A stretch of DNA of 43,427 nt from the NCBI RefSeq assembly GCF_016862995.1, contig NZ_BOOA01000066.1, forward strand, positions 1 to 43,427. The letters run 5' to 3'. The first letter of the stretch is position 1. The number at the start of each line of letters is the position of its first letter. Origin of the DNA: Acrocarpospora phusangensis (GTDB taxonomy: Bacteria > Actinomycetota > Actinomycetes > Streptosporangiales > Streptosporangiaceae). This document shows positions 10,990 to 39,106 of the stretch, one piece after another. Position numbers and translations under genes: made by a program. The notes beneath the pieces were generated by a model, which was not told the DNA's origin, did no database searches, and saw only the letters and a list, made by a program, of their open reading frames with translations.

Positions 10990-12907
<1,918 letters not shown>

Positions 12908-12911
<4 letters not shown>

Positions 12912-13675: not shown

Positions 13676-13682
13676 ACTCCGG

Positions 13683-13713: not shown

Positions 13714-13734
13714 GTCATCAAGGATCTGGTTTCG

Positions 13735-21561: not shown

Positions 21562-22533
21562 TCAGTACGGCCTGCGGCGGCGCGGGTCCTCCTCGCCGCC
21601 CTGCCCTTCCTGCGCGGGGAAGACCGCCGTCCCACCCGGCTGACCGGGCAATGGCTCCTCGATGGTCCGCTCGATCACGTACCCCTGCGGGTAATCGGGC
21701 GCCTGCGCGGGCGGCGGATACGACTGCTGCGCCTCCGGCACCGGCCCGTACGGCTGCTGCGGATACGGCATCGGGTACGGCACCGGCACATAACTGACCA
21801 CCGGCGGCTGGTACGGCTGCACCGGGTATCCCGGGTACGGCATCATCTGGCCGGGCATCGGGTGCATCGGCTGCATGGGGGGCTGCATCGGGTACATGGG
21901 CTGCATGGGTGGCTGCATGGCCGCGCCCCGGCGCAGGGCCGCCGCGTGGGCCAGCCTGCGCAGCCGTCCCTCGAAGACCAGCCAGCCGAGCAGGGCGAGC
22001 AGCACCAGCAGCGCCGCCGGAGCGGCCAGTTTGCGGCTGAGGCCGGTCTGGTCGAACTCGGGGGTGGCGTTGCGGATCTCGATCGCCACCACCTCCGGGT
22101 CGGGCTCGGTGAAGGCCGGGCCGGGAGTCACCTGCGGGGCGGGGGTCTCGCCGGCGGTCGGGAGCGAGACGGCCGGCTCGGGAACCTCGGGCGTCTCCTC
22201 CGGGATGACCGGATCGCTGCTCGGCAGCTGCTGCTGCACGGTCGGGATCGGCGGCGGCGTGGTGCTGGGCTGAGCGGGCGGCTGCGACTGGGACTGCGTC
22301 GTGGGCGACGCGCCGGTGGGCGTCGGGGTGACCGTCTGGGTGACGGTGACGCTGACGTCGCCCGTGGGCTCCACGGTGACCGTGACGGTCTCGCAGAGGT
22401 CGCCCTCCCGGCAGGGGTCGACCGGGTTGGCCGCGCCCGACGCGGACGCCGCGGCGATCATCACCAGGAGCCCGGCCGAGGCCAGCGTGGCGGCGACTAC
22501 GGACGCGACCCGTCTGCGTGCGCGTCCGACCAC
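21562..22533 (-). CDS. Membrane-anchored Pro/Thr-rich surface protein with repeat tail
   Basis: I do not recognise a family for this 323-residue protein. It has an Arg-rich start and a hydrophobic signal segment (about 10-33), then a Thr/Val/Pro-rich outer part (TVTVEP, TVTQTVTPTPT, Pro-Gln runs). A second membrane helix lies at about 169-187, with a basic stop RLRR after it. A 130-residue tail rich in Pro, Met, Tyr and Gln follows, including MQPPMQPM repeats. The layout is a type I membrane protein with a proline-rich cytoplasmic tail. Two cysteines close together (41 and 47) follow the signal. GTG 22533 has GGAGG five bases upstream. It is downstream of the secretion-like cluster on the same strand, but has its own candidate promoter. 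Confidence 0.75.
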   Translation of the reverse strand: MVGRARRRVASVVAATLASAGLLVMIAAASASGAANPVDPCREGDLCETVTVTVEPTGDVSVTVTQTVTPTPTGASPTTQSQSQPPAQPSTTPPPIPTVQQQLPSSDPVIPEETPEVPEPAVSLPTAGETPAPQVTPGPAFTEPDPEVVAIEIRNATPEFDQTGLSRKLAAPAALLVLLALLGWLVFEGRLRRLAHAAALRRGAAMQPPMQPMYPMQPPMQPMHPMPGQMMPYPGYPVQPYQPPVVSYVPVPYPMPYPQQPYGPVPEAQQSYPPPAQAPDYPQGYVIERTIEEPLPGQPGGTAVFPAQEGQGGEEDPRRRRPY

Positions 22534-22581
22534 CGTGTCCTCCGCCGTTTTCGCCGTCTCTGCCTGACTTTCCCGGTCATG

Positions 22582-22610
22582 GAAATACTAGTAGGGCAAA
22601 GGACTGGCAA
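22582..22610 (-). promoter_or_regulatory. Candidate promoter of the Pro-rich surface protein gene
   Basis: On the minus strand TTGCCA (22610-22605) and TATTTC (22587-22582) are 17 bases apart, giving a leader of about 40 bases that ends in GGAGG before the GTG. The gap to the preceding gene is 99 bases and notably AT-richer than its surroundings. Assigned by eye only. Confidence 0.4.
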
Positions 22611-22632
22611 AACATGTTTCGGACGGTGAGTC

Positions 22633-24612
22633 TTATTCGGGGTCTTGCTCCTGACGCCTCCGGGACAGCCGAATCTGGAGTCCCAGGATGACCAGAAGCC
22701 CGCCCACCGTGGCCAACGTGAGCGGCAGCCCCTTGATCGACTCCATCCGGTCGGGGGCCTCCGTTAGCGCAATGTTCCTCGGATTGACCAGCGCGGGAGG
22801 GCTGAGCGACGGCGGCGACGGCGCCAGCAACGGAATGCTCGCCCCACCCAGATCCATCGGCAGCGGCACAGGCGTGACCCCCGGCGTCGCCTCCGGCAAC
22901 GTCGGCACCTCCACCGACGGCAACGCGACCGCCTCCGGCACCGCGGGCGCGGCCGACGGCAACGCGGCAGCCGCCTCCGGCAGCGCGGCCGAGGCCGACG
23001 GCAACGCGGCAGCCGCCTCCGGCAGCGCGGCCGACGGCGACGCGGCAGCGTCCGGCAGCGCGGGCACCTCAGCCGACGGCATCGCAACCGCCGCCCGCTG
23101 CTGCGTCACCGCCCCACCAGCCACACCCTGCCGCGCACGCACCGCCCCACCAGCCGACCCCTGCTGCGCACCCACCGCCCCACCAGCCGACCCCTGCTGC
23201 GCACCCACCGCCCCACCAGCCACACCCTGTTGCGGATTCAGTGCGGCACCGGCGGCATCCTGTTGTGGACTCGCCACGCCCGCCACGCCCGCCACGCCCG
23301 GCGTCGCCTGACCGGCGATCCCGGCCTCCGGCGCCTCCTGCGCTCCATGAAGGACCGGCGGCTCCCCGGGCGTCGGGGAGCCCTCCGGCGCGGCTTGGGC
23401 GGCAGGCGCCTGCCACCTTTGCGGTGCGGCCTGGAGACCCGGTAGGAGGCGACTCTGCGGCGCGGCCCCCCCAACTGCGACGTCAGTCGCCTGCCAGCCT
23501 TCGGACGTGGCCCGCGTGCCCGGCCTCACCATCCACCGGTGCCCGCCCTCCCACCCCTGCGGCGACCCGCGCCCGTCCAGACTGTTCGGTGCGCTCAGCA
23601 CGCTACGCCTTTCCGGACCGTCCGGACCGACGGGACCGCCCCGCGCGTCCGGACCGCCCTGCGCGTCCGGATCGCCCTGCCCGACGGGACCGCCCTGCCC
23701 ATCCGGACCGCCCTGCCCATCCGGACCGCCGTGCCCGACTGGACCGCCCTGCCCATCCGGATCGCCGTGCGTCAGAAGGGCGGCGTCAGGCGTCCGCGAC
23801 GCCTCCCCGCCATCCCCGCCATCCCCGCCATCCCCGCCGTCCCCGCCGTCCCCGCCGTCCCCGCCGTCCCCGCCGTCCCCGCCGTCCCCGGCGAGCGTGC
23901 CGACAGCGTCCATCGCCTCACGCCGCCCCGGCTCCCGCATCTGGCTTTGGGGCAGGAGGTCCCCGGACATCCGCGGCACCGGGAAGTCCTCCCGATCCGC
24001 GCCCAACCGGTCCCACCCTCCCCGCTGGCACACGACGCGGCAGGCCAGGGGCGGCAGCCATGCTCCGCTGGGTGCCGGGTTGGCCATGGGGCTGGGTATC
24101 GGGAACAGCTGCCTGGAGCCACTCGACAGGAGGGAGGGGATGCCTGAGGGTTCGGTGGCGGGCACGACGAAAGGGCCGGCGGTGGGCGAAGGCGTACAGG
24201 CCGGGTTGAGGCGTGGGGGAATCGGGACAGGGCCCGGTGAGGCGGGCACGGAGACGGACGGGATCGGCACCGGTGTGGGTGTCGGGCGGACCGGGCTGTT
24301 CGCGCCTCCGGCGAGCAGCGGCCCGCAGTCGACCGTCCCGCCCGGGGACGCCCACGGGCTCGCCCCGGGCACCCCGCTCACGCCCCCGGCCGGCCCTGGG
24401 CCACTGACGGCACTCAGATCCCCACCGTAACCAGCCATCCCTGGAGCCACGCTCACGCCGGTTCCGTGGCCGTTCGCGGACGAGCCCGAGGTCTGGTCGG
24501 TGCTCCGGTCAGGTGCGGGCTGGTCGGCGAGGGCGGCTACCGCCGGACCGCCGAGAATGACGGCCCCGGCCCCCACCACGGACACGACATATCCCCGCCG
24601 CCACCGATTCAT
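22633..24612 (-). CDS. Large repetitive membrane-anchored surface protein with collagen-like triplets
   Basis: This is a 659-residue low-complexity protein with no recognised enzyme domain. A signal peptide (about residues 1-28, PAVAALA) is followed by a Ser/Gly/Pro-rich segment. A run of Gly-Gly-Asp triplets comes next, then Gly-Gln-Gly/Gly-Pro-Val/Gly-Pro-Asp triplets that fit a collagen-like Gly-X-Y pattern with breaks. Eleven-residue Ala-Val-Gly-Ala-Gln-Gln-Gly-Ser-Ala-Gly-Gly repeats and Ala/Leu/Pro/Glu repeats follow. A C-terminal helix near residues 630-650 (VGGLLVILGLQI) and a basic tail anchor it in the membrane. ATG 24612 is preferred over the GTG just before it because GGGGGAG is eight bases upstream. 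Such proteins usually form stalks or wall-spanning rods; that is inference here. Confidence 0.75.
   Translation of the reverse strand: MNRWRRGYVVSVVGAGAVILGGPAVAALADQPAPDRSTDQTSGSSANGHGTGVSVAPGMAGYGGDLSAVSGPGPAGGVSGVPGASPWASPGGTVDCGPLLAGGANSPVRPTPTPVPIPSVSVPASPGPVPIPPRLNPACTPSPTAGPFVVPATEPSGIPSLLSSGSRQLFPIPSPMANPAPSGAWLPPLACRVVCQRGGWDRLGADREDFPVPRMSGDLLPQSQMREPGRREAMDAVGTLAGDGGDGGDGGDGGDGGDGGDGGDGGDGGEASRTPDAALLTHGDPDGQGGPVGHGGPDGQGGPDGQGGPVGQGDPDAQGGPDARGGPVGPDGPERRSVLSAPNSLDGRGSPQGWEGGHRWMVRPGTRATSEGWQATDVAVGGAAPQSRLLPGLQAAPQRWQAPAAQAAPEGSPTPGEPPVLHGAQEAPEAGIAGQATPGVAGVAGVASPQQDAAGAALNPQQGVAGGAVGAQQGSAGGAVGAQQGSAGGAVRARQGVAGGAVTQQRAAVAMPSAEVPALPDAAASPSAALPEAAAALPSASAALPEAAAALPSAAPAVPEAVALPSVEVPTLPEATPGVTPVPLPMDLGGASIPLLAPSPPSLSPPALVNPRNIALTEAPDRMESIKGLPLTLATVGGLLVILGLQIRLSRRRQEQDPE
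23105..23225. repeat. 33-bp tandem repeats in the surface-protein gene
   Basis: Several near-identical 33-base units encode an 11-residue Ala-Gln-Gln-Gly-Ser-Ala-Gly-Gly-Ala-Val-Gly motif. The central copies are almost base-identical, and the flanking copies differ at a few sites. A related block with Ala/Leu/Pro/Glu repeats lies at about 22900-23060. The array length may vary between strains. Confidence 0.8.
23640..23890. repeat. Collagen-like coding repeats: GGxPxG block and 9-bp Gly-Gly-Asp array
   Basis: Bases 23802-23890 are a near-perfect 9-base tandem array encoding Asp-Gly-Gly about nine times. Two unit variants differ by one base and are sorted into two blocks. Bases 23640-23765 are looser 9- and 18-base repeats encoding Gly-Pro-Asp, Gly-Gln-Gly and Gly-Pro-Val triplets. 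Both blocks keep reading frame and Gly spacing of three. Confidence 0.85.
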
Positions 24613-24651
24613 CACCCGAGCTCCCCCGATGCACGCTTCGTAAGCGTTATG

Positions 24652-25059
24652 TCACACCAGGTCGGGACTCAATCCTTCCTTGAGCAGATCTTGCACGGCC
24701 TTCACGATCGGCAGATCCGCGGGCAGCCACGCCACCGAATAGAAGTCCCCCGGCTCAAGCCACCGCAACGCCAGATGCTCCCGCGCCTCGGGTGTCCCCG
24801 CCGCGAGCGCGGCCAGCCACACCCGCAGCACATAACCCCCGCTCAGCGGCCAGTCCCCACCGACCCGCCGGCCAACAGCGATCTTGACGCCCAGTTCCTC
24901 GTCGCACTCCCGGACCAAGGCGTCATGTTCGCTCTCCCCCGGATCGACCTTCCCGCCCGGAAGCTCCCACCCGCCCATGAGCTCCGCCGGTTCGGCCCGC
25001 TGAGCGGCCAGCAGCCGCCCGCCCTCGACGATCGCAGCGCCGACAACGATCTTCTCCAT
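24652..25059 (-). CDS. NUDIX hydrolase (MutT-like)
   Basis: This 135-residue protein has a perfect Nudix box. GKVDPGE is followed by seven residues and RECDEELGV, matching G-x5-E-x7-REUxEExGU, and GGWELPGG precedes it. The family hydrolyses nucleoside diphosphates linked to another moiety. The short single-domain form resembles 8-oxo-dGTP or dCTP pyrophosphatases, but the substrate cannot be fixed. It begins 6 bases after the NlpC/P60 gene on the same strand, so it is probably transcribed with the secretion-like cluster. A role for it in that system is not evident, and it may simply be a passenger. Confidence 0.93.
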   Translation of the reverse strand: MEKIVVGAAIVEGGRLLAAQRAEPAELMGGWELPGGKVDPGESEHDALVRECDEELGVKIAVGRRVGGDWPLSGGYVLRVWLAALAAGTPEAREHLALRWLEPGDFYSVAWLPADLPIVKAVQDLLKEGLSPDLV

Positions 25060-25065
25060 GCCTGT

Positions 25066-26220
25066 CTAGGGTACGCGCGCCCGCACTCCCACACCGGACC
25101 AACGCGATTGACTCCCGATTACCGTACGGCCAAGACTGGGTTGCCCGGCGGCCAGCGGCAGCCGTTTGAGCTGCTCCATCACGTCCGCGTTGGCCAGCGG
25201 CCGGGTGTATCCGACGATCCCGGACCGGTCCTTGTACGTGGTGACCTTGATCGGCCCGCACAGCGTGCACCGCGCCTCGATCATCTTCCCGGGCGAGACG
25301 ACCATCCCGACATGCCCGGGATTGTTGACCGACGTCCCCGGTCCCGAGTTGAAGAACACCAGGTCGCCCGCCTGCTCGTCACCCGCGTCGATCTTCTCCC
25401 CGAACGGCCACTGCCCGAAGGTCGTCCGCGGGATCGACAGCCCCGCGTTCCGGTAGGCCATGTAGATGATCCCCGAACAGTCGTACGCGTCCGGCCCGGT
25501 CCCACCCCACCGGTACGGCTTGCCCCGCTGCGCCAGCGCGTAGTCCAGGATCTCCGCCACGATCTCGCTCGGCGCCTGCACCTCGAAGGCGCAGTCCGGG
25601 TTGTTCTCCGGCGGCAGGCCGATCTCGCCGGAGGCCGCGTACCGTTCGGCGATCTCCAGCACCTGGTCCACGTACCAGGTGGCGCGGTTGTAGACGAAGA
25701 TGGCCTTGCGCAGGTCGTCGGGGGCGCCGTTGCGTTTGAGCATCTTGGCCGCGCCCAGGATGGCGTCCGCGGGGTTGTACACGTCCGCGATGCCGTCGCC
25801 GTCGCCGTCGGAGGCGTAGCCGTTGAACTCGGACGGGATCTCGATGCGCGCCTTGCCGCCCCAGGTGCTGATCAGGAACTGCATCGGCCCGGCCGCGCCC
25901 GCCTCGTTGGTGCCGGACCGCACGCCCGGCAGGGTGGAGCGCCCGTGGTCGGTCTCGCGCTTGCCGACGGCCGCCAGCACGTTCCACTGCACGCCGATCG
26001 CCTCGCCGTGCTTCTTGTAGAGGGCCAGGTACTCCGGGGGAATGTCCTCCTTCGCGGTGGCGGACAGGTCGCCCACGTCGACCGCGCACTCGGCTCCGCC
26101 GCCGCCGAACATGCCCCCGGGTAACGGCGTCATCAGCACGATCGAGCCGAACAAGCCCAGCGGCACGACCACGGCCAGGAGCGCGGCCACCCATTTCCAC
26201 GAGAGCCGGCTCGTGTTCAC
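25066..26220 (-). CDS. Lytic transglycosylase-NlpC/P60 cell wall hydrolase (VirB1/TcpG-like)
   Basis: This 384-residue protein has an N-terminal membrane helix (about 10-30) and two wall-cutting domains. The first, at about 60-195, is a lytic transglycosylase-like domain with Glu89 in KRETDHG and AGPMQF at about 110-115. The second, at about 220-345, is an NlpC/P60 endopeptidase with Cys248 in YDCSG, His303 in PGHVG and an N/Q-type third residue after it. The pair cuts both glycan and peptide of peptidoglycan, as the hydrolase of conjugation machines such as TcpG or Tn916 Orf14 does to open the wall for the channel. The GTG at 26220 overlaps the previous stop as GTGA. Confidence 0.9.
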   Translation of the reverse strand: MNTSRLSWKWVAALLAVVVPLGLFGSIVLMTPLPGGMFGGGGAECAVDVGDLSATAKEDIPPEYLALYKKHGEAIGVQWNVLAAVGKRETDHGRSTLPGVRSGTNEAGAAGPMQFLISTWGGKARIEIPSEFNGYASDGDGDGIADVYNPADAILGAAKMLKRNGAPDDLRKAIFVYNRATWYVDQVLEIAERYAASGEIGLPPENNPDCAFEVQAPSEIVAEILDYALAQRGKPYRWGGTGPDAYDCSGIIYMAYRNAGLSIPRTTFGQWPFGEKIDAGDEQAGDLVFFNSGPGTSVNNPGHVGMVVSPGKMIEARCTLCGPIKVTTYKDRSGIVGYTRPLANADVMEQLKRLPLAAGQPSLGRTVIGSQSRWSGVGVRARVP

Positions 26221-26852
26221 GGCGACGTGTCCCCGTCCTGCCCGGCGTCGGCGGGCTGCATGTCGTAGACCCGCCAGTCCGTGCCGAGCTTCATGACGGT
26301 CACCGCGTACGAGTCGGTCTGGTCGCGCGCGCCGGCCGTGCTGGTGATGTGCTGGATGGAGTCGACCACGAACACGACCGAGCCCAGGGCCATGTCCCTG
26401 ATCGAGATCACCTTGGCCGAGCCGTCCGAGACGATCTGCTCGGCGGTGTCGTGCTGGGTCAGCGCGGGCGCGGTCAGGCTGCGGGTGAGCTGCTCGCCGA
26501 ACTCCACGGTCGCGAACCGCCGCACCCGGTCCACCCGCGCCACCGGATCGGCGTGCGTGTAGGTCCCGTACGCGCCGACGAACCGCCGGGCCAGGTCCGC
26601 GGCGGCGGCCAGCTCGTCCCGGCTCAACGGCAGGTACGCGTACACGTCGAACTCGCCGGAAGGCGTGCTGGCCACCTGGCTCGGCACGGCCGGGACGGTG
26701 ACGCCCGTCGGCGCGCTCCGGCCGGTGGGAGCCGCCTCATGCTCGGTACGCGTGTCCCCGCCGCCGAGCATCGTCAGATAGACGCCGATGGCGGCGAGCA
26801 CGACGACCACGGCCACGAAGACGAGTCGCCTCCGGCCGTCCGTTCCCTCCAT
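26217..26852 (-). CDS. Single-pass membrane protein, second TcpC/VirB8-like (NTF2-fold) candidate
   Basis: This 211-residue protein has one N-terminal helix (about 10-30, LVFVAVVVVLAAIGVYL) and an extracytoplasmic domain from about residue 70. The pattern (LARRFVGAYGTYTH, later SYAVTVMKLGTDWRVYDM) resembles NTF2/VirB8-like conjugation proteins. No catalytic motif is seen. The ATG at 26852 has AAGGA six bases upstream and lies 2 bases after the VirB6-like stop; an upstream in-frame start would invade that gene. It overlaps the hydrolase start by 4 bases. It probably joins the periplasm-equivalent part of the channel. The fold assignment rests on pattern only. Confidence 0.72.
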   Translation of the reverse strand: MEGTDGRRRLVFVAVVVVLAAIGVYLTMLGGGDTRTEHEAAPTGRSAPTGVTVPAVPSQVASTPSGEFDVYAYLPLSRDELAAAADLARRFVGAYGTYTHADPVARVDRVRRFATVEFGEQLTRSLTAPALTQHDTAEQIVSDGSAKVISIRDMALGSVVFVVDSIQHITSTAGARDQTDSYAVTVMKLGTDWRVYDMQPADAGQDGDTSP

Positions 26853-26854
26853 GA

Positions 26855-29194
26855 TCAGTCCTTGTCGCGGTCGGGGGGCCTCAACCAGAACGGCGCGTTG
26901 TCGCCGCCGCGGGCGCTCTTGGCCCGGCTCGGCAGCCACAGCGGCGGCGCTTCGGAGCGCGACTGCCGGGGGGCCTCGGAGCGAGGCGGCTGGGATCTGG
27001 GGGTCTCAGTGTGCGCGGACCTACTGGGTTCGGACCGCCGCTCGGCACGCGGGGTCTCCGACCGGGACGACCGCCGGCCGCCCCCGCCACCTCCGCCGCC
27101 ACCGAACAGGCTGCCGCCGCCGAAGAATCCGCCGCCCGACGAGCCCCGGGAGGACCCGCGCGACGAACCACCGCCGGACCCGCCGCCGGAACCGCCGCCG
27201 CCGAACAGGCCGGACGAGCGGCTTCCGCCGCGGGAGGCCGCGGACGGCCGGGAGGCCCAGCCGCCGGACCGGCCGCCGAACCACCCGCCGGAGGAGGAGC
27301 CTCCGGACGAACCACCCGAGCTGGGCACGCTGCCGGTCGAGGACGGCACGGGCCCGCCCGGCCGTCGCGGACCGGTCGTCCCCGGTCTGCCGCCGGCGGG
27401 CGGACGCAGGTTGAGCGGCGGCGCGCTACCCGGACGCGGCGCCGGCACGGCGCCGCCCTTCTTGCGCGGATCCGTCTCCAGCGGCGCGGGCTGGCCGGTC
27501 GCCCGGACCCCGGTGGCCCCGGCCGCCTTCTCCTCGCCGCGCACCCGGCCCTGCGCCACCGTCGACGCGGCGGCCGCTCCGGCCCCGGCTCCGGCCGCCA
27601 TGGACGCGGCCCCGACGATGGGCTCCGCCTTGCGCAGCCCCCACCGCCCGATCCTGGCCGACGCCACCGGCGGCAGCACCACGCTGGAGCGCTGCAGGAT
27701 CGGCGAACTGGCCGCCTCGCCCAGCATGCGGGTGGTGAACGTGTGCCCGCTCATCGAGGCGAACAGGTGCTGGAACGGTCGCCGGTAGAAGAACACGGCC
27801 AGTGTCAGCAGCGCCATGAACATGATCTGCATGCCCCACGGCAGCGGCGTCGAGATGATCAGCGCGTAGCCGTACACCAGGACGCCCAGCACGAGGGCCA
27901 GCACCGCCTGCCTGAGCAGAGTGCCGACGAGCATCTCCACCCAGCGCATCGCGATGATCCGGCCGGCGCCGGGGTGCACGCCGATCAGCAGGAACACCGG
28001 GCCGAGGATGAGCAGCAGCAGGAAGCCGATCTTGAGGACCAGCAGCGAGACCGAGACCAGGAAGATCAGTACGCCGGCCACCATGGCGGCGATGAACGCG
28101 CCGATGGCCACGCCCAGGCGGCTCGTCCAGTCCTTGCCCTGGAACAGGAAGAACGCCGGGGTGCCCTCCAGGGGCTTGGCGACCTCCTCCTCGAAGCGCT
28201 TCTGGTGGATGTCGCTGCCGGGTGTCTGGGCGCCCTGCTGCTCGGCCACGTCGATGGCCTGGATGTCCAGCAGCTTCGGCGCGAAGGTCGCCACGATCGG
28301 GGCGTTCGCGTCGGCGGTGCCGAACTCGCCCATCAGCCACGGCTTGCAGACCAGCGTCGACCAGAGCGCGTCCGCGTTCTGGGCCACGCCGGGCGTGCCG
28401 GGCTGGCCGTAACCGCCGCCCTCGGGGCGGGCGTTCTCGGCGCCCTTCGGCGGCAGGCAGGACGCGCCGCCCGCGCCGGGCAGGCCGGAGAAGGCCGAGT
28501 TGACGATCTCGCCGGTCTTGTCGGTGATGGTCTTGCCGACGCCGGTCAGGTCCTGCGGGCGGCTGAAGAACCAGGTGGCCACCGTGACCGCCAGGACCAT
28601 CCAGATGACGCCCTCGGTGGTGGTCGTGGCGCGTTTGCGGAGCAGGCCGTACCAGGCCAGCCAGATGGCGGCGATGATCACGATGGGCCGCAGGAACGGC
28701 CAGTACATGGCGTCGGCCAGGTTGACCACCATGTCGTCGACCACGTTCTTGATGGGCAGCAGCGGGCCTTCGGTGGCCGCCGCCTCGTACGTGGTGATGG
28801 TGAGCCGGTCGACCGCCTTGGCCCAGGAGAAGATCGTGCTGGCCCAGGCGTTGCCGAGCACGGCCGCCACGTCGGAGCAGCCCAGGTCGTAGGTGTGCCA
28901 GAACTGGCCTGCCATGCCGTACCTGGCGTAGTTGGTGAGCTCGGGGTCGGGGGCGACCTCGACCGGGGCGCCCGCGCCGACGCCCGCGCCCGCCGCCGCG
29001 CCGGTGTCCCCGGTGTCGGGCGGAGGCGGCTTGACCAGGCCGTCGACGCCGCCGCCGACCATCTCCGGGGCCAGCGACGAGGACAGGTCACAGATCCCGT
29101 CGGCGCTGGCCGTACTGGATGCGAAGACCAACGGAAGACTGAGAACGGTGACCACGGCCACCAGCACCAGCGCTAACCGGCGGACAAACCTCAC
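26855..29194 (-). CDS. VirB6/TrbL-like polytopic conjugation protein with Gly/Ser/Arg tail
   Basis: This 779-residue protein has a signal-like N terminus (about 1-32) and an outer loop. Several membrane helices follow (near residues 160-200, 360-400 and 400-470). A large Gly/Ser/Arg/Pro-rich cytoplasmic tail runs from about residue 560 to the end, with dense Gly-Gly-Ser and Arg-Ser-Glu runs. The helix arrangement is that of VirB6/TrbL/TcpH-type inner-membrane channel components, and a long charged tail is common in such proteins of Gram-positives. The GTG at 29194 overlaps the VirB4-like stop as GTGA. The tail is the most repetitive DNA of the gene and may be disordered. Confidence 0.82.
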   Translation of the reverse strand: MRFVRRLALVLVAVVTVLSLPLVFASSTASADGICDLSSSLAPEMVGGGVDGLVKPPPPDTGDTGAAAGAGVGAGAPVEVAPDPELTNYARYGMAGQFWHTYDLGCSDVAAVLGNAWASTIFSWAKAVDRLTITTYEAAATEGPLLPIKNVVDDMVVNLADAMYWPFLRPIVIIAAIWLAWYGLLRKRATTTTEGVIWMVLAVTVATWFFSRPQDLTGVGKTITDKTGEIVNSAFSGLPGAGGASCLPPKGAENARPEGGGYGQPGTPGVAQNADALWSTLVCKPWLMGEFGTADANAPIVATFAPKLLDIQAIDVAEQQGAQTPGSDIHQKRFEEEVAKPLEGTPAFFLFQGKDWTSRLGVAIGAFIAAMVAGVLIFLVSVSLLVLKIGFLLLLILGPVFLLIGVHPGAGRIIAMRWVEMLVGTLLRQAVLALVLGVLVYGYALIISTPLPWGMQIMFMALLTLAVFFYRRPFQHLFASMSGHTFTTRMLGEAASSPILQRSSVVLPPVASARIGRWGLRKAEPIVGAASMAAGAGAGAAAASTVAQGRVRGEEKAAGATGVRATGQPAPLETDPRKKGGAVPAPRPGSAPPLNLRPPAGGRPGTTGPRRPGGPVPSSTGSVPSSGGSSGGSSSGGWFGGRSGGWASRPSAASRGGSRSSGLFGGGGSGGGSGGGSSRGSSRGSSGGGFFGGGSLFGGGGGGGGGRRSSRSETPRAERRSEPSRSAHTETPRSQPPRSEAPRQSRSEAPPLWLPSRAKSARGGDNAPFWLRPPDRDKD

Positions 29195-31674: not shown

Positions 31675-33868
31675 CGATGCTCTCCCCTCTCGCTGTGGTC
31701 AGCCCGCTCGCGACCACTCCGGCAAGCGCCACGTACGCCCGGCGTCCGCCCGCGCGGAGATCGCCGAGATCCACCGGCCCGGTTTCGGCCAGCTCGTCCT
31801 CCCACGGCACCCGGACGATGGCCCGGCATCGGCCGCGCGCCACCGCCTCGGCCCGCTCGACGTCCGCCAGGCTGCGCCGGCTCACCCCGTTGACCACCAT
31901 GACCGCCCGCCGCCGCAGGTCCGCGCAGCCGTGGCCGTCCAGCCACTCGTACGTCATGGCCACCGCGTCCGGCGCGTCCGCGCTGGCCGGCGCCACCAGC
32001 ACCAGCTGGTCGGCGTACGGCAGCAGCCGCGCGGCCAGCGCCGCCGCCGGGTCCATCAGGATCACCCGGTACTGCTGGTCCAGCAGCCGCATGGCCCGCG
32101 CGATCCGCTGGTCGGAGAAGGCCGCCCGGTCCGAGATGCGCTGCTCCGCGCCCTCGTCGGTGTCGGCGGCCAGCACGTCCAGACCCGACTCGCACCGGCT
32201 GGTGTACGCGCCGACATGCGTGCCCACCTGGTCGAGCACGGCCAGGAAGGAGCTGAGCGTCTCCGGCGACTCGGGCCTGATCCTGGCCGTCAGGGTGTGG
32301 TCGCCGGTGTTGGCGTCCACCGCGAGCACGCCGTCGTCGCGGTGCCTGGCCAGGGTGTGGCCGAGCAGCAGCGTGGTCGTGCTCTGCCCGGCGCCGCCGG
32401 TGCAGCCCAGCACGACCACCCGGCGACTGCCGGTGATCGGCGTGCGCACCCGCGCCTCGTCGTTCTCGATCCCGTCGGTACGGCCTCCGCCGCTGCCCAC
32501 CACGACCTGGGCGATCCGCCGCCAGCCGCCGCTGGGGTCCCGGCTCACCGACTCCACCCGGCGGACCTTGGGCTCCTCCACGGACTTCTTGGCCTCGGGG
32601 CGAGGGATGGGCACGGGGGCGGCGGGCTGGCCGGACAGCGCGGGCACGGCCCGGATGGAGAGCTGGCGGGCGGGTTCCCGCCGCTCGGGGGCCGGTGGCC
32701 GGGGCGGCTGGCCGCGGCGGTGCTGCTCCCTGGCCCGGTCCGGCGGGGTGGCCGGTTCCGGGATCGGGCGCTGGGGCACCGGGGGCATCTTCTGCGGGGT
32801 GAGCGTCTGCGGCGGGGTGGCGGCTCCGCTCCTCGACTCGGTCTCGGTCGAGGCGGCGGCCAGGCGGCGCAGGCGGCGCAGCGCGTCGGGACCGATCGGC
32901 GGCGCGGGCGCCTCGGCGACCGGCTGCGCGACCTTGGGCTCAGGCGTCGGCTCAGGCCGGGGTTCGGGCTCTGGTTCAGGCGTCGGTCCGGGCTTGGGCC
33001 CGCCCGGCTCGGTCTTCGGTTCGGGCCGGATCCGCTCGACGGGAAGCCCGCGCTCGGGCCGGGCGTATTCGACGGGCTGCCTGGGCTCGGGCCGGGCGTA
33101 TTCGACGGGCTGCCTGGGCTCGGGCCGGGCGTATTCGACGGGCTGCCCGCGCTCGGGCCGTCCGGGCTCGGGCAGGGTGTATTCGGCGGGCTGCTTCGGC
33201 TCGGGCCGTTTGGGCTCGGGCTGGACGAAGACCGGGATGGCCGGGGCCTTGGCGGAAGCCGTACCCCAGGAGGGGCGGACGGTCGGTTCGGCGACCGGCG
33301 CGGCCGGGGTGGGGTCGGCGGGGATCGCGGCGGCGGCAGCGGCCACGGCGGGGCGGATCGTTCCGGGGACGCGGCGGCGCGGCGGCTCGGGGGACTTGGA
33401 CGCCGGCTGCGGGAGCTTGACCGACACCTTCGCGGCGGCCGCGGCGCGGGCACTGGCCAGCACGGGCTGGGCCTGCCGGGCGCGGCGCGAGGCCGGACGG
33501 CGGGACGCCCGCCAGACGCGGCCGTGGAAGACCACCTCGTCCGGTTCAGAAACCGGCGCCAGCCGGCACCAGGTACGCGGCTCGGACAGGTAGCGGCTCT
33601 GCGACTGGAGCAGTTCGGTGAGGCGTTTGCCCTCGATCACCGGCCGGGTGGACAGCCAGGTCACGACGCCCGGCGGAACGAGGTAGATGACGTGCCAGGG
33701 AGCGTCGAACTCCAGGCCGACAAGCTGCAGGAAGACCCACCAGGGCGCGCTCACGCCGATGAAGACACCGATCCAGACGATGGGCAGCGGCGTGGGCAGC
33801 CGTAGGTCGTACAGCTTGTAGAGCCGCTTCTCAATTCGCCAAATATTGGTGTATGTAGGCAGGTCCAC
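31667..33868 (-). CDS. TcpE-like membrane domain fused to a MinD-like ATPase with degenerate P-loop
   Basis: This 733-residue protein has three parts. Residues 1-120 hold two membrane helices in a TcpE-like form (LPTYTNIWRIEKRLYKLYD start). Residues 120-480 are Pro/Glu/Arg-rich with 11-residue repeats. Residues 480-725 are a MinD/ParA-like domain. The P-loop there reads GCTGGAGQSTTT near residue 493, so both lysines of the KGGxGK form are replaced by Thr and Gln. Walker B is ILMDPAAAL. ATP binding may be weak or absent. TcpE is a small inner-membrane partner in Clostridium and Tn916-like conjugation. The GTG at 33868 has GAGGAGG six bases upstream. It overlaps the next start by 8 bases. Confidence 0.82.
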   Translation of the reverse strand: MDLPTYTNIWRIEKRLYKLYDLRLPTPLPIVWIGVFIGVSAPWWVFLQLVGLEFDAPWHVIYLVPPGVVTWLSTRPVIEGKRLTELLQSQSRYLSEPRTWCRLAPVSEPDEVVFHGRVWRASRRPASRRARQAQPVLASARAAAAAKVSVKLPQPASKSPEPPRRRVPGTIRPAVAAAAAAIPADPTPAAPVAEPTVRPSWGTASAKAPAIPVFVQPEPKRPEPKQPAEYTLPEPGRPERGQPVEYARPEPRQPVEYARPEPRQPVEYARPERGLPVERIRPEPKTEPGGPKPGPTPEPEPEPRPEPTPEPKVAQPVAEAPAPPIGPDALRRLRRLAAASTETESRSGAATPPQTLTPQKMPPVPQRPIPEPATPPDRAREQHRRGQPPRPPAPERREPARQLSIRAVPALSGQPAAPVPIPRPEAKKSVEEPKVRRVESVSRDPSGGWRRIAQVVVGSGGGRTDGIENDEARVRTPITGSRRVVVLGCTGGAGQSTTTLLLGHTLARHRDDGVLAVDANTGDHTLTARIRPESPETLSSFLAVLDQVGTHVGAYTSRCESGLDVLAADTDEGAEQRISDRAAFSDQRIARAMRLLDQQYRVILMDPAAALAARLLPYADQLVLVAPASADAPDAVAMTYEWLDGHGCADLRRRAVMVVNGVSRRSLADVERAEAVARGRCRAIVRVPWEDELAETGPVDLGDLRAGGRRAYVALAGVVASGLTTARGESIVG
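33053..33151. repeat. Three tandem 33-bp units in the linker of the TcpE-MinD gene
   Basis: Three adjacent 33-base units at 33053, 33086 and 33119 encode an 11-residue Tyr-Ala-Arg-Pro-Glu-Pro-Arg-Gln-Pro-Val-Glu repeat. The first two are almost identical, and the third differs near its end. A longer degenerate copy follows. The repeats would lengthen an extended Pro-rich spacer between membrane and MinD-like domain. Confidence 0.85.
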
Positions 33869-33898
33869 CCGATTCCTCCTCTCCCAGCGTGCCCAGGA

Positions 33899-34213
33899 TC
33901 ACTGGATGCCAAGCGCCCCCGCGATGGCCTTCGCCGTCACCTCGATGATGTTCGGCACGTAGAAGATCACACCGATCGCGATGGCCAGAATGATGAACTG
34001 GACGAATCGCGTGATCTCCCTGGTGAAGAGGAAGAAGAGCGCGACCACCGAGACGATCACCAGGAACAAAGGCCCGAAGAAGCGGCGCAGGAAATCGGCC
34101 AGCCCCTCGGTGTTGATGCCCTGGTTCGGCGCCGGGGTCGGCGTGAACGCAATGAGTTCGGCGCCGCCGAGCTGACTCGACGCGGCGGTCTCAAGAATCG
34201 TGTGCACAATCAT
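33899..34213 (-). CDS. Small two-helix membrane protein (TcpD/VirB2-like position)
   Basis: This 104-residue protein has an unstructured start and two adjacent hydrophobic helices at about residues 48-66 and 70-98. A basic/acidic loop (TREITR) lies between them. No catalytic motif is seen. It lies between the TcpC-like and TcpE-like genes, the place of the small membrane protein TcpD in clostridial tcp clusters; it is also the size of a VirB2-like pilin. ATG 34213 has GGGAGG seven bases upstream. The family is not recognised, and the role is read from position. Codons in this gene are less GC-rich at third positions than in the backbone genes. Confidence 0.78.
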   Translation of the reverse strand: MIVHTILETAASSQLGGAELIAFTPTPAPNQGINTEGLADFLRRFFGPLFLVIVSVVALFFLFTREITRFVQFIILAIAIGVIFYVPNIIEVTAKAIAGALGIQ

Positions 34214-34263
34214 TTTTCGCCCTCCCGGGGGTGTGGATCAGCGACATCACGGTCGGCCATGTG

Positions 34264-35262
34264 TTACCCCACGGACCGGCCCGCGCCCTGGATCCGCCCG
34301 ACGAGCCACTTCTCGCCCTGCCTCTCCATGGAGAGCTGGTAGGCCTGCTCCAGGCCGGCCGGTTGCGCGGCCGGATCAGCCGCCGGGTCGGTGGTCGGCT
34401 GGACCGCGGCGGCGCCCGCCGGGACCGCCCACACCACGACCGCCGTGACGGTCCTGCTCGACTCCCCGCCCACCGGAACGATCACATCGGTGAGCTGGGC
34501 CAGCGTGAACGAGCCGCCGAGCCCGTCGATGGTCGCGCCGTCCGTGGCGTAGAGCCGCAGCTCCGCCGAGTTGCCCGACGCGTACGCCTTGAAGAAGCCC
34601 TCCAGGGTCGGCCGGAGCTGGTCCTCCAGGCCGTTGTCCCGGTCGGGGTCGGCGATCGCGGGCAGGTCGGCGACGGCGGGGGCGGGCAGCAGCGCCGGCC
34701 GCCCGGAGACCACGAAACGGTCGCCGGAGTGGTAGACGGGCACCGACAGCAGCCATCGTTTGCTGCCCGACTGGAAACTCACCACGACGATGGCATTCTC
34801 GTTGTCGTCGGCCACGTCGATGCTCTGGAATTGAATCGCGCCGGCCGACATCCGGCCGTAGCCATTCCAGCCGAAACGGCGCTCGACGCCCTGGGCGAGA
34901 AATGCGGTAAGCCTTTCGTCGCGCTGGTCGGGATTGGTCGCGTCGAAATTCAAATAGACCGCGGCGAATTGGCTCGCGAATCCGGCGGCCTCCTGGACCG
35001 GATATCCGGAGTCTGCGGGCGCGGTCGGGGCCGCGGCGTTCTGGCCCTGGGTGAACCGTTCGAACGGCGCCCGCACCCCGTTGACCACGATCACGACGAT
35101 GAGCGCCCAGAGGACCGCCCGGCCGACCCAGACGAGCCAGCGGCCCCCGCCGCCGCTCCATCCCCTGCGCCGCACCGGCGCCGAGTCGAGATCAGGCAAC
35201 GGGTACGACTCGGGGTCGCCAGCGATCCGAGGATCCTGCTGGACGGTTGACCTGCGAGCCAT
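34264..35262 (-). CDS. TcpC-like conjugation scaffold protein (VirB8-like)
   Basis: This 332-residue protein has one membrane helix (about residues 43-65, GRWLVWVGRAVLWALIVVIVV). Two extracytoplasmic domains follow (about 85-190 and 195-320), matching the TcpC layout of tandem NTF2/VirB8-like folds joined by a Pro/Ala-rich linker. TcpC trimers couple the membrane channel to the wall hydrolase in conjugative plasmids such as pCW3. The C-terminal domain ends with EKWLVGRIQ, a usual last strand. ATG 35262 has GGAGG four bases upstream; a GTG just before it is too close. It is the first gene of the operon. Its mid-part uses AT-richer codons than the backbone. Confidence 0.85.
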   Translation of the reverse strand: MARRSTVQQDPRIAGDPESYPLPDLDSAPVRRRGWSGGGGRWLVWVGRAVLWALIVVIVVNGVRAPFERFTQGQNAAAPTAPADSGYPVQEAAGFASQFAAVYLNFDATNPDQRDERLTAFLAQGVERRFGWNGYGRMSAGAIQFQSIDVADDNENAIVVVSFQSGSKRWLLSVPVYHSGDRFVVSGRPALLPAPAVADLPAIADPDRDNGLEDQLRPTLEGFFKAYASGNSAELRLYATDGATIDGLGGSFTLAQLTDVIVPVGGESSRTVTAVVVWAVPAGAAAVQPTTDPAADPAAQPAGLEQAYQLSMERQGEKWLVGRIQGAGRSVG

Positions 35263-35604
35263 CACGCCTCCGCTCGCGCCGATCCCCCCGGCTGGCGCGG
35301 TGTCTTCTTACTCTCGATCCGGTTATCCACGTTGAAGTATTCACCCTAGCGGTCCCGCCAATTGTTCCAGGAAAGCCACGCCCATGCTGTGCGCATCTAA
35401 GTAACCGGCCAAACCGAGTCTGCATGAGACAGAGAGTGGCCGTACCGGCAGGTACGACCACGAAACGGCGTCTTTGCAGGCCAGCGACCCGTACTATTAC
35501 CAACCGGTCAGCGAGAGCTATCCAAACCGTACGAAGACTCCTACCTGGGTTTCGCTCCCCGCGCAGGATATCGGCCCCGCCCGGGGGCAGCTCCCCGTTG
35601 CCCG
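35263..35604. other. Intergenic region upstream of the tcp-like operon
   Basis: This stretch of about 340 bases has no gene I can support and is AT-richer than its surroundings. It holds a perfect dyad CGTACC-GGCA-GGTACG at 35441-35456 that could bind a regulator. A minus-strand TTGGCG with TACTTC 16 bases on (about 35334-35361) is a weak promoter candidate for the tcpC-like operon. A plus-strand frame starting near 35474 runs into the neighbouring gene and is not convincing. Confidence 0.4.
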
Positions 35605-37944
35605 TCAGAGGCCGATCAGGTCGGTGCGGCCGAGGAAGAAGGCGGCGTGGACGTTGTCCATGCCGACGGTCTCGCTGATCTGCGCGGCCCTGACCCCGGC
35701 CGTCCCGTAGCCGACGCGCAACGTCCCCTTGTCCGGTCTGCTGTCCGCGGGGATGTCGCCCAGCAGGCTCAGCCTGACCTCGGGCGACTTGAAACTCTCC
35801 CGGACGAGGCTCAGGAAGATCCGATGGGCGACCAGCTCGACGATGCCCTCGGCGATGATCTGCGAGTGCCCGATCGTGGCCGCCTTGGCGGCGAAGGCCG
35901 GGTGCGTGAGGCGGTGCATGAACTCGTGCACCATCGTGTTCAGGGTGCGCCAGCGCCAGAACGCCCTGACCTGGTCCGCAGGCAGCTCGCCCGACCATGC
36001 CCGGGTGGGGGCGAACGGCTGGAGGGAGATCATTCCCTCCTCGGTGCCGTGCGAGGCCGTACGGAGATAGAGCGCGCCGATCCGGTTCGCGCGCTCGGTG
36101 TCGGCGTCGAGCCACTCGCCCAGAATGCGCCGCAGGGCCGCGACGTGTTCCGGGTTGCTGCCCACATAGCCGGCTCGGACGAACGGCGCGTCCGCGGACT
36201 CCGGCGTCCCCACGACCTCCGGAGTGACAACCTCCAGTGTCACGTCCTCCGCGGCGACCTCCAGAGTTGTCTCCGCCGTGCCGGCTATTTCCGGGCCGGC
36301 TTCCGGGCCTCTGCGGTCCGGGCCCCTGGGTTCCGGGCTTTCCGGTCCCCGGCCCTTGGGTTCCGGGCCTCGCGGTTCCCGGCCTCTGGGCTCTGGGCTT
36401 TCGGCTTCCCGGCCCTCGGATTCCAAGCCTCTGAGCTCCGAGCCTCTCGGTTCCGGGCCTCTGAGTTCCGGGCCTCTGGATTCCAAGCCTCTCAGTTCCG
36501 AGCCCGTGGATTCCAAGCCTTGGGGCTCTGGGCTCTGGGGTTCCGGTGTGCCGACGAGTTGGGCGGGCTTCGGTCTGGCCATGCCGACGACTTCCGCGCG
36601 GTTCATGAGGTAGCCGAGCCTGATCTCCCGGTTGTCGGTCTTCTCCAGGGTGCTGCGCACTCGCTCGCCGTAGCGGAAGCCCTGGTAGTAGGGACCTTCT
36701 GGGTTCGCCCGGGCGAATGGCACGTTCTCGCCGATCCACGTCTGCAGGTACGCGGCGACCACCCTGACCCGTTCGATCGGCTCATAGACGGGCTCCTCGC
36801 CCTCCGCGTGAATCCAGAAGCGGGCCTGCTCCGCCACCGCCGCTTCGAGCGCGGGCACCAGAACGTCCCGCAGAATCCCCTCATCGAGCGGCCGCTCGAC
36901 CTGCCGCCCCACCTCGGGCATGCGGTAGTACCCGCGCAACGTGTCCTGCTGATCACTGGACGGCGTGGACAGCCCGGCGCACAGCAACGCGCTCATCAGG
37001 CCCGACACCTCCAGCACCTCACGCTCGAAAACGGCGTCCGCCTCACCGGGATTCGTTCGGTGCTGACTGGCCCGGCCTATCAGCCGCTCCACCGCCCCCG
37101 CGTGGTTCCTCTCCCCCGGCGTCAACCCCGCCTTCTCCTGGTACGCGTACAGCGCGCACGCCAGCCACCGCCGGTTCTCCCCGCTGATCCCCTCAAGCCG
37201 CACCCACAGCGGCTGTCCCTCCCCCAGCAACTCAGTCGCGACCCCGTCGAAGTAGGCGCTCTCCTGTTCGGGCCCGGCAAACCGAGGCACAGCCACATAA
37301 TCAAGCGCCGCGAAAGGCGACGGCCGCAACCGCGCCCGCCCCAACTCCTGGTCTCGCGCCCCCGGCAAGCGCCCCCCGCCAAGCTCCCGCACCTCCGAAT
37401 CCGGCCTCACGGGCACACGCGCGACGCCCAGCTCACGAACCCCTGAATCCGAACGCACAGGCAACCGCGACGCACCCAGCTCACGCGCACCCGAATCCGG
37501 CCTCACGGGCAGGCGCGCCACACCCGAATCCGAACTCACAGGCAAACGCCCCGAACCCAGCTCACGGACGCCCGAATCCGTAGTGGCAGGCAATCGCGCC
37601 GCGCCCAGTTCCCGGACGTTCGTATTCGAACTGGCAGGTAGCCGCGCCGTGCCCAGTTCCCGGGCCTCGCCCCGTCCGCCGGTCACCATGCCGGTCGTGG
37701 TCATGCGGACGGTCTGGACAGGCCGCACGTCCACCGGCGGCGAGTCGAGCGTGATCCGCTGGACTCGCTTGGTCTTGTCGAGGACGCGCTGACCGGTCGG
37801 CTCCTCACCGTCCCGCTCGGGAGACGCCTCCCGGCTGCCGGGCCGGCTTTTCGCGCCGGGCTTGTCCTCAGCGGAGGCGGAGGAGTTACCCGAGGACCGG
37901 GAGCCACTGCGGCGCTTCTTGTACACCCGCTCATGGTGGCCCAT
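35605..37944 (-). CDS. Large repeat protein with zincin motif, function unknown
   Basis: I do not recognise a named family for this 779-residue protein. An Arg/Ser-rich basic start (1-60) has no signal peptide. Residues 95-206 hold about six imperfect 16-residue repeats of the RELGxxRLPxxxDSGV type. A non-repetitive middle at about 210-460 follows, then a PEPRG/ELRG/LESxG repeat at about 466-551. A C-terminal domain contains HEFMH (673-677) and AEGIVEL with Glu699, which together look like a zinc metallopeptidase site (HExxH plus downstream Glu). ATG 37944 has only weak ribosome-site support. It is on the same strand and upstream of the tcp-like operon but separated by about 340 bases. It could be a secreted effector or wall protease; this is inference. 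Confidence 0.72.
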   Translation of the reverse strand: MGHHERVYKKRRSGSRSSGNSSASAEDKPGAKSRPGSREASPERDGEEPTGQRVLDKTKRVQRITLDSPPVDVRPVQTVRMTTTGMVTGGRGEARELGTARLPASSNTNVRELGAARLPATTDSGVRELGSGRLPVSSDSGVARLPVRPDSGARELGASRLPVRSDSGVRELGVARVPVRPDSEVRELGGGRLPGARDQELGRARLRPSPFAALDYVAVPRFAGPEQESAYFDGVATELLGEGQPLWVRLEGISGENRRWLACALYAYQEKAGLTPGERNHAGAVERLIGRASQHRTNPGEADAVFEREVLEVSGLMSALLCAGLSTPSSDQQDTLRGYYRMPEVGRQVERPLDEGILRDVLVPALEAAVAEQARFWIHAEGEEPVYEPIERVRVVAAYLQTWIGENVPFARANPEGPYYQGFRYGERVRSTLEKTDNREIRLGYLMNRAEVVGMARPKPAQLVGTPEPQSPEPQGLESTGSELRGLESRGPELRGPEPRGSELRGLESEGREAESPEPRGREPRGPEPKGRGPESPEPRGPDRRGPEAGPEIAGTAETTLEVAAEDVTLEVVTPEVVGTPESADAPFVRAGYVGSNPEHVAALRRILGEWLDADTERANRIGALYLRTASHGTEEGMISLQPFAPTRAWSGELPADQVRAFWRWRTLNTMVHEFMHRLTHPAFAAKAATIGHSQIIAEGIVELVAHRIFLSLVRESFKSPEVRLSLLGDIPADSRPDKGTLRVGYGTAGVRAAQISETVGMDNVHAAFFLGRTDLIGL
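36290..36545. repeat. Gly/Pro/Glu/Arg coding repeats in the zincin protein
   Basis: An irregular tandem array of 12- to 18-base units encodes PEPRG, ELRG and LESRG type blocks. Units are mixed and recombined rather than identical, with strong runs of TTCCGGGC/TCTGGG on the plus strand. The array breaks no frame. Confidence 0.75.
37325..37665. repeat. 48-bp coding repeats in the zincin protein
   Basis: About six units of 48 bases (one shortened to 33) encode the RELGxxRLPxxxDSGV repeat. Base identity between neighbouring units is high, especially around the GAGCTG, CGCCTGCC and GATTCGG portions. They lie in the N-terminal third of the protein, away from the catalytic-like domain. Confidence 0.82.
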
Positions 37945-39095: not shown

Positions 39096-39106
39096 GGAAT
39101 CCGAGT

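Follow-up and report, generated by a model that had tools for sequence, protein, structure and literature searches.

In a passage of a 2025 review it is called surprising that nearly all known functions of Gram-positive T4SS are DNA translocation, and the question is raised whether other functions exist (PMC12857230). Two chromosomal systems described in literature passages are precedents: the T4SS of Patescibacteria, a monoderm VirB4 system mostly without a relaxase and thought to be co-opted (PMC12102498), and the Streptomyces cmdABCDEF cluster. According to the passages on the latter, cmdB and cmdA-F mutants of S. coelicolor branch and septate aberrantly and are impaired in segregating their chromosomes, while the transfer of plasmids is not significantly changed (data not shown), and CmdB is a membrane-bound, VirB4-like protein (PMC2782261).

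The window analysed here is one entire contig of 43,427 nucleotides from Acrocarpospora phusangensis (NZ_BOOA01000066.1). On its minus strand, at 25066-35265, it carries a block of genes that we consider rather likely to be a type IV apparatus of the MPF_FA (Tcp/Tn916) type, domesticated in the order Streptosporangiales and passed on vertically. That the apparatus is fixed and decoupled from conjugation is held with high confidence, while non-DNA export as its job is close to an even bet. Among soil actinomycetes the block offers a conserved candidate for a non-DNA Gram-positive T4SS, which can be compared with a cousin on plasmids. The system had been called undescribed, and no paper on it was found among the literature matches listed, whose scope left most subscription journals outside.

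Core components and neighbouring genes

The original prediction placed TcpC-, TcpD-position-, TcpE-, VirB4-, VirB6- and second VirB8-like proteins and a two-domain wall hydrolase on one strand, and searches with Pfam, NCBIfam and Foldseek bear this out for all but the TcpD-position protein. The features of the region are as follows.

35605-37944: putative zincin, 779 aa; HEFMH by eye, no Pfam match
38019..39095, minus strand: ychF, upstream neighbour outside the machine, start codon inferred; PF06071 1e-38 on ORF 38019-39344
34264..35265, minus strand: TcpC/VirB8-type scaffold protein, 333 aa, one TM; PF12642 3e-14
33899..34213, minus strand: TcpD-position protein, 104 aa, two TM helices; orthologue in 20/20 loci
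31667..33868, minus strand: TcpE (VirB3), Pro/Ala/Glu-rich linker and MinD/ParA-like domain in one gene, 733 aa
33563..33856, minus strand: TcpE domain, aa 5-102; PF12648 4e-21
31670..32503, minus strand: MinD/ParA-like domain; AlphaFold2 pLDDT 86, Foldseek matches FlhG/MinD/Soj
32381..32407, minus strand: altered P-loop GCTGGAGQS, T and Q replacing two lysines of KGGVGKT
29191..31674, minus strand: VirB4/TcpF ATPase, 827 aa; PF12846 3e-69, Walker A GEPGGGKTT intact
26855..29194, minus strand: VirB6/TcpH-type polytopic membrane protein, 779 aa; PF04610 3e-6
26217..26939, minus strand: second VirB8-fold protein, 240 aa; Foldseek matches to VirB8 folds
25066..26220, minus strand: membrane-anchored SLT + NlpC/P60 wall hydrolase; PF00877 2e-19, PF13406 1e-6, TM 11-29
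24652..25059, minus strand: NUDIX hydrolase, associated; PF00293 5e-15
22633..24615, minus strand: 660-aa protein rich in Gly, Pro and Ala, with a signal and a TM near the C-terminus; TM 10-28 and 630-648
21562..22533, minus strand: 323-aa low-complexity membrane protein adjoining sdhB; TM scan, locus profile matches

Thus, the features of an MPF_FA core are present, namely an AAA_10 VirB4, TcpE, TcpC, VirB6, a wall hydrolase and a second VirB8 fold. A TcpC profile built from 15 orthologues matched (5e-16) the solved chain 3ub1, which we take to be TcpC of pCW3 and whose entry describes an NTF2-like protein with a role in plasmid conjugation. The VirB4 protein matched the NCBIfam TcpF model NF052333 at 5e-74, under the 1100-bit cut-off of this exception model, and its Walker A columns are invariant in the orthologue profile; VirB6 matched NF046089 at 2e-21, also under the cut-off of the model. 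For the second VirB8 protein Pfam alone gave E 0.059. Its structural model (mean pLDDT 78, pTM 0.58, folded part 92-98) matched the VirB8 domain of PrgL (7aed) at 2e-5 in Foldseek, together with CagV, DotI and 3ub1, and hhalign aligned the protein with TcpC at P 81.5 across 41 columns. The SLT-NlpC/P60 hydrolase occupies the VirB1/TcpG role; PHROGs matched it to tail and lysis proteins and assigned a function to none of the T4SS core proteins. The genome itself holds one PF12846 and one PF12642 match.

The 104-aa TcpD-position protein had no meaningful family match in Pfam, and is marked by a near-invariant loop, FFLFT[RK]E[IV]TRF (12 sequences, by eye). It was rejected as a VirB2 pilin (P 0.2 when aligned by hhalign with a pilin-like protein from another locus) and as LptF/LptG, where a Pfam match of 4e-6, just under the cut-off, was taken as a chance match for a two-helix protein. 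The tight coupling claimed for most of the genes holds in part: among the nine junctions counted, from tcpC through the 323-aa gene, GTGA is found at two and overlaps at four in all, whereas the others have gaps of 6-99 bases.

Downstream, the two low-complexity membrane proteins said to follow are indeed present, but a NUDIX gene, unlisted in the original prediction, lies between them and the hydrolase, and their membership of the machine is doubtful for both. Profile matches were found in 82 of 105 loci for NUDIX, some loci being cut by contig ends, and in 75 of 105 for the 323-aa protein. The 660-aa protein had no Pfam match and has BLAST relatives in only two congeners among 20 loci. Upstream, a zincin repeat protein had been noted as preceding the block; it is not a conserved part of the machine, as the 20 related loci compared, each of 20 kb, hold no homologue.

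The absence of a relaxase, a TcpA/FtsK-type coupling ATPase and an integrase was correctly predicted: no relaxase, T4CP, FtsK or integrase was detected by Pfam (E limits 0.1 to 0.001) among 39 window ORFs, which are part of the window's ORF list and in some cases overlap. The chromosomal core is kept without a linked relaxase or coupling protein.

A MinD/ParA-like domain fused to TcpE

What the original prediction overlooked is that TcpE makes up only about the first 100 of 733 residues, and that the C-terminus of the same protein is a MinD/ParA-like domain. Pfam gave weak ParA-type matches at aa 484-630, and the AlphaFold2 model, matched by Foldseek to FlhG, MinD and Soj, has the SIMIBI fold. 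The deviant Walker A motif KGGxGK[ST] is not retained, both P-loop lysines having given way to other residues in every one of the 105 chromosomal loci, while KGG-GK is found in all 32 non-fused relatives listed (25 distinct places). The fusion is present in 88 of 89 loci, a count that leaves out 16 loci that lack TcpE because they end inside its gene, and is a single ORF in 24 of 24 loci of a smaller set; the linker between the two parts ranges from 247 to 1322 residues. Between congeners the dN/dS of the ParA-like domain is 0.05-0.07, that is, purifying selection.

Relatives of the domain occur in T7SS and T4SS loci. One adjoins EccB/EccE/WXG100 genes and another adjoins T4SS pilin, SCO6880-family and T4CP genes. 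The phylum-wide draw scored six candidates per genome, so weak relatives can escape it. The SCO5717-family relatives reach E about 1e-60 at domain level. TcpE/VirB3 is fused to a MinD/ParA-like domain that is kin to secretion-associated MinD-type ATPases, such as the SCO5717 family of T7SS loci, and has lost both P-loop lysines.

Distribution in the order and plasmid cousins

Of 150 genomes drawn from the order Streptosporangiales, the own genome counted, 147 have VirB4. It was also found in 36 of 36 other genomes from the genus and the family, as well as in the single genome from a second family, at 74-97% identity. The misses fall in one genus, whose three sampled members all lack it, two of them again in a search with the VirB4 profile; since one genus does without the block, the machine is not indispensable. 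Outside the order, a draw of 353 genomes from the class yielded VirB4 matches in 15, all of them weak (at most 32% identity); this draw scored two candidates per genome, so that weak relatives can escape. In phage records 4 weak VirB4 matches were seen, in Enterococcus and Streptococcus phages. The hosts of the best 80 of 265 confirmed loci are Acrocarpospora, Microbispora, Herbidospora, Nonomuraea, Streptosporangium and kin.

Gene order is kept in 20 of 20 loci (20-kb, BLAST; virB6 unscored in two), and the machine genes have dN/dS of 0.05-0.22 between congeners. In the counts based on 105 loci a genome can enter twice, under two ids, with 96 distinct VirB4 among 103 loci. The question had been raised whether the site lies between ychF and sdh in relatives. 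This holds for ychF, which is found upstream on the same strand, at any distance within the locus, in 62 of the 73 distinct loci where 2.5 kb or more precede tcpC, but less so for sdhB, found downstream in 5 of 20 loci and in 3 of 5 loci with 6 kb of downstream DNA. Thus a monoderm core (VirB1-, VirB3-, VirB4- and VirB6-type, with two VirB8-type proteins) sits at one kind of chromosomal site, without the sporadic distribution at variable sites that is a trait of conjugative elements. These figures (147/150, 20/20, 62/73 and the dN/dS values), along with the lack of PF02534 or plasmid-type coupling proteins and of MobF in the own genome, support the claim that the machine is fixed in the chromosome and not mobile.

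Two Nocardiopsis plasmids (NZ_CP099838.1 and NZ_CP080600.1) carry all eight components at profile level, including the TcpD-position protein, present on both, with VirB4 proteins 73.5 and 70.3% identical and an annotated MobF relaxase and coupling protein on each. As in the chromosome, ParA adjoins the VirB6 and hydrolase genes. However, the plasmids have TcpE and ParA as separate genes with a canonical KGGVGKT in ParA, whereas the chromosomal protein is fused and altered; moreover, their hydrolase has the SLT part only (by Pfam in one, as a partial profile match in the other) and their gene order differs from that of the chromosomal block. In the VirB4 tree the plasmid proteins group with one chromosomal row (90/98, not starred), although a topology with the chromosomal proteins in a clade of their own is not rejected (p-AU 0.40). 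In the ParA tree the plasmid proteins are not sisters of the fused ParA, and in a concatenated six-component tree (quick method, unrooted) the plasmids fall between the two clades of chromosomal loci, where an outgroup could also stand. Descent of the chromosomal block from such a plasmid is not supported, as the VirB4 tree does not resolve it and the ParA tree contradicts simple plasmid-to-chromosome descent; with these topologies, capture of the channel by a plasmid may have taken place. A Nonomuraea plasmid whose VirB4 is 29% identical shows the ordinary case, in which an FtsK/SpoIIIE-domain protein adjoins VirB4.

Candidate roles and comparison with known systems

Near-universal retention without components for selecting and cutting DNA, together with the altered MinD/ParA-like domain, suggests that the apparatus has probably been turned to a cell-envelope housekeeping job. 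The VirB4 motor would drive a channel through membrane and wall, the SLT-NlpC hydrolase would open the wall locally, and cargo would be taken without a VirD4/TcpA coupling ATPase, whose absence points to protein, wall material or small solutes as the probable cargo. Export may take place at tips or septa, or there may be passage between mycelium compartments. The tethered pseudo-MinD domain could, on its long and flexible linker, act as an arm that positions or gates without catalysis. We put forward tentatively, and as less probable than the domesticated apparatus in general, an order-wide non-conjugative type IV envelope machine in which the dead MinD/ParA module on VirB3 positions or gates the channel and replaces the coupling ATPase. 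In this version the module would come from secretion-associated SCO5717/EspI-like stock, on a leash of 250-1300 residues. Export of protein or surface polymer stays a guess because the zincin is unconserved and the 660-aa protein has relatives in two congeners only. Nonomuraea, Streptosporangium and Microbispora are antibiotic producers, so an envelope or developmental role, if true, would also be of practical interest.

Other roles would keep DNA as the cargo. A septal or intramycelial channel for development or chromosome segregation, handling DNA within the organism as has been proposed for cmdABCDEF, would suit a MinD/ParA-type domain on TcpE, which could serve positioning at septum or nucleoid, and would agree with the phenotypes reported in the passages on the cmd mutants (PMC2782261); yet the block has neither a DNA motor nor a coupling protein, orthology with cmd is unsupported by the VirB4 profile, and we regard this role as unlikely. 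Less likely still is a resident mating channel serving mobilisable or conjugative plasmids in trans, with relaxase and T4CP supplied by the plasmid. On the two Nocardiopsis plasmids an orthologous channel does occur together with MobF and T4CP, and both families are sporadic among relatives (MobF in 18 of 41 genomes, T4CP-type proteins in 12 of 31); with these T4CPs and the FtsK-family proteins on other contigs of the own genome, a coupling protein acting in trans is possible. However, both plasmids bring their own channel copy, and retention in 147 of 150 genomes needs a steady selection that occasional plasmids would hardly give. Moreover, four of five sampled Acrocarpospora have a MobF match and none has a T4CP, neither of PF02534 nor of the plasmid type, and the own genome has neither T4CP nor MobF (PF08751), the only relaxase family sought genome-wide. 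An ordinary ICE or its decaying remnant, with a DNA-processing module overlooked or lost, would explain why all parts are of conjugative origin and why a plasmid cousin exists, but it is very improbable and already contradicted by the conservation of site and gene order, the presence across the order, frames that are open, low dN/dS between congeners and the lack of relaxase, T4CP and integrase among the 39 ORFs.

The apparatus can be set beside further described systems. The Patescibacteria T4SS belongs to a different phylum and, in its best-studied case, has a pilin array and VirD4-like parts (PMC12857230, in the passages concerned), with no TcpE-ParA-type fusion reported in the passages at hand. 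Streptomyces cmdABCDEF (SCO4126-4131) resembles the block, in the passages on it, in that genes for membrane proteins, among them a VirB4-like ATPase, are clustered on the chromosome, but no TcpE-ParA fusion is reported there (PMC2782261). The order's VirB4 profile gave no match at 1e-5 in one probable Streptomyces genome, assigned by its SCO5717-family match, with SCO4127 itself outside the comparison, and distant matches only in six other genomes of the probable genus; cmd is therefore not a demonstrated orthologue. SCO5717-family and EspI-like T7SS ATPases share a MinD/ParA domain behind a long low-complexity N-terminus, the likeness to EspI being by description only, but the SCO5717 family has a canonical P-loop and no adjoining TcpE; EspI has been linked to ATP levels (Zhang 2014, as cited in a passage of PMC6343904).

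There is also a likeness to the Tcp/Tn916 (MPF_FA) systems such as pCW3, whose gene names, as used here, are taken in part from passages of PMC12857230. TcpC, TcpE, TcpF (VirB4), TcpH (VirB6) and the wall hydrolase are common to both by profile, as are two VirB8-type proteins and a tcpE directly before virB4. In contrast to these systems, the block is chromosomal, vertically inherited, without linked relaxase or TcpA-type coupling protein, and has TcpE fused to a pseudo-MinD; this VirB3-pseudo-MinD fusion is a defined, testable novelty.

Composition and fixation of the block

The A. phusangensis genome comprises 9.1 Mb in 219 contigs, and the window is contig C66 in full. Its features of interest are as follows.

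10252-13718 (minus) and 18857-21501 (plus): two succinate dehydrogenase/fumarate reductase sets (flavoprotein and FeS subunit), on opposite strands with about 5 kb between them
35265 down to 25066 (minus): tcpC, a 104-aa two-helix gene, tcpE, virB4, virB6, a second virB8-like gene and an SLT-NlpC/P60 hydrolase gene, by gene calls and profiles
After the hydrolase gene: a NUDIX gene and two genes for low-complexity membrane proteins, then sdhB on the opposite strand
35605-37944 (minus): a gene for a 779-aa protein in which RELGxxRLPVxSDSGV-type repeats and an HEFMH zincin motif are seen by eye

The machine encoded at 25066-35265 is assembled from known conjugation parts. The TcpC profile matched the solved conjugation protein 3ub1, the predicted model of the 240-aa second VirB8-like protein has a VirB8 fold, and in NCBIfam the ATPase was best matched by TcpF (5e-74) and the VirB6 protein by the CD3337/EF1877 mobilome membrane family (2e-21), each under its curated cut-off. 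The Walker A and B residues of VirB4 are intact, and PF12846 and PF12642 each have a single match in the genome. As originally predicted, a scan of 39 window ORFs found no relaxase, coupling protein or integrase.

The original prediction of a fixed chromosomal machine is also supported. The block is fixed in the order. With the window VirB4 as query, matches at 74-97% identity were obtained in all 36 further genomes from the same genus and family, as well as in the sole genome of a second family, and none in the three genomes of a third family of the order. A wider draw across the order recovered VirB4 in 147/150 genomes, that of A. phusangensis included, the three misses belonging to one genus, the same that was missed in the third family. 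In a class draw of 394 genomes, with two candidates scored per genome, 56 had a VirB4 match, 41 from the same order and 15 from others at 32% identity or less. The order tcpC, two-helix gene, tcpE-parA, virB4, virB6, second virB8 and hydrolase was kept in 20/20 loci of 20 kb from different genomes (virB6 was left unscored by BLAST in loci L041 and L052). Upstream, on the same strand, ychF was found in 62 of the 73 distinct loci with at least 2.5 kb before tcpC. Between Acrocarpospora loci, dN/dS of the machine genes was 0.05-0.22, the TcpE and ParA-like domains lying near the low end. Against the more distant locus L035 it was 0.16-0.57, and there the second VirB8 was highest.

The gene of the 779-aa HEFMH protein, between ychF and tcpC, is possibly lineage-specific; the Pfam search of this protein was empty and a homologue was absent from 20 related loci.

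TcpE fused to a ParA-like domain

In the 733-aa TcpE protein, Pfam assigns TcpE at residues 5-102 only, with weak MinD/ParA/BcsQ matches at 484-630. The latter domain has a predicted MinD/Soj fold (pLDDT 86), with Foldseek matches to FlhG (1.4e-10), MinD 1hyq and Soj 1wcv. Both domains share a single reading frame in 24/24 loci of the first set and in 88 of the 89 loci where TcpE was found, a count that leaves out 16 loci whose contig ends before TcpE. The exception is L111 (6472-9950, an [Actinomadura] parvosata record), where the gene is divided between two overlapping frames, either a sequencing error or a broken gene. The linker ranges from 247 to 1322 residues, and the four linkers inspected are Pro-, Ala- and Glu-rich. 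At 105/105 chromosomal loci the P-loop sequence is GC[TSA][GS]GAGQ[ST], which thus lacks the two lysines of KGGxGK[ST], the signature lysine and that of the P-loop itself. In ParA/MinD proteins, hydrolysis is lost when these lysines are replaced. As far as shown by the literature matches listed, it is this TcpE-pseudo-MinD fusion, together with the order-wide fixation, that is new.

The domain profile matched 49/396 genomes of the phylum, including that of A. phusangensis, which has a second family member with a canonical P-loop on contig C23. Among the non-fused relatives, 32 rows representing 25 distinct places were inspected, and every one has the canonical KGG-GK P-loop; the fused copies form one clade in the ParA tree (13 rows, 100/100). 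No TcpE was found beside those non-fused relatives whose loci were fetched, nor any ParA-like match near 17 distant VirB4 loci (L053-L069). At locus L187, an SCO5717-family protein adjoins the type VII secretion (T7SS) genes EccB, EccE and WXG100. Outside the window's class, at L192 (genome G545, contig C519), a canonical MinD/ParA gene lies beside genes for a TrbC/VirB2-type pilin, an SCO6880-family protein, a coupling protein (T4CP) and a hydrolase related to the SLT-NlpC enzyme, which suggests that MinD-type ATPases partner actinobacterial type IV secretion systems (T4SS) more widely. EspI of ESX-1 would be a natural comparison for the ParA-like domain; it is reported to lower secretion at low ATP in work cited in PMC6343904.

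Missing transfer functions and the putative role

Among all genomes searched, a plasmid-type T4CP was detected in 12/41 and PF02534 in 12/31, and the same five Acrocarpospora genomes had neither (0/5 for each). The FtsK-family matches of the A. phusangensis genome fall on three contigs, none of them the window contig; a coupling protein may act in trans. PF08751 (MobF) was matched in 18/41 genomes in all, once in each of four other Acrocarpospora and not in the window's genome. A MobF-type ORF of 1414-1444 aa is present in Acrocarpospora genomes G001 (contig C42), G002 (C122) and G004 (C100), and is shorter in G003; no counterpart was found in the window's genome.

The retained parts are those for building and powering a channel, and the absent ones those for DNA choice and processing. 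Gram-negative T4SS without VirD4 exist, such as pertussis toxin export and Brucella VirB. On these grounds a channel in the envelope or septum that works without a T4CP is our preferred reading, with the tethered pseudo-MinD as its putative regulator. The main rival would be an intramycelial role, as suggested for cmdABCDEF of Streptomyces coelicolor, a chromosomal cluster with a VirB4-like protein where, according to PMC2782261, branching, septation and chromosome segregation were affected with no significant change in plasmid transfer. According to PMC6585502, transposon insertions in cmdBCDEF and in a gene for a lytic transglycosylase alike raise actinorhodin production. The VirB4 profile search gave no support for orthology between the cmd ATPase and the VirB4 of the block.

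Plasmid relatives in Nocardiopsis

A tblastn search with VirB4 against 72,556 plasmid records returned, at 60% identity or more, three Nocardiopsis plasmids and one Nonomuraea gerenzanensis record, the latter a main replicon filed as plasmid. Two of the three Nocardiopsis plasmids were examined, NZ_CP099838.1 and NZ_CP080600.1 (L153 and L154). The VirB4 tree was ambiguous on plasmid versus chromosomal descent, and the unrooted concatenated component tree was compatible with an outgroup position for the plasmids. Since their ParAs lie among T7SS-type ParAs, apart from the fused clade, ParA may have been recruited twice to this channel. PLSDB types both plasmids, which have a complete complement of T4SS parts and for which both MobF relaxase and T4CP are annotated, as non-mobilisable, likely a false negative of the typing. 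Like the chromosomal block, both have all eight machine components at the profile level, yet their TcpE and canonical MinD/ParA are separate genes rather than fused, their hydrolase shows the SLT part only, and the MobF relaxase and a type IV conjugative DNA transfer protein are annotated elsewhere on the plasmid.
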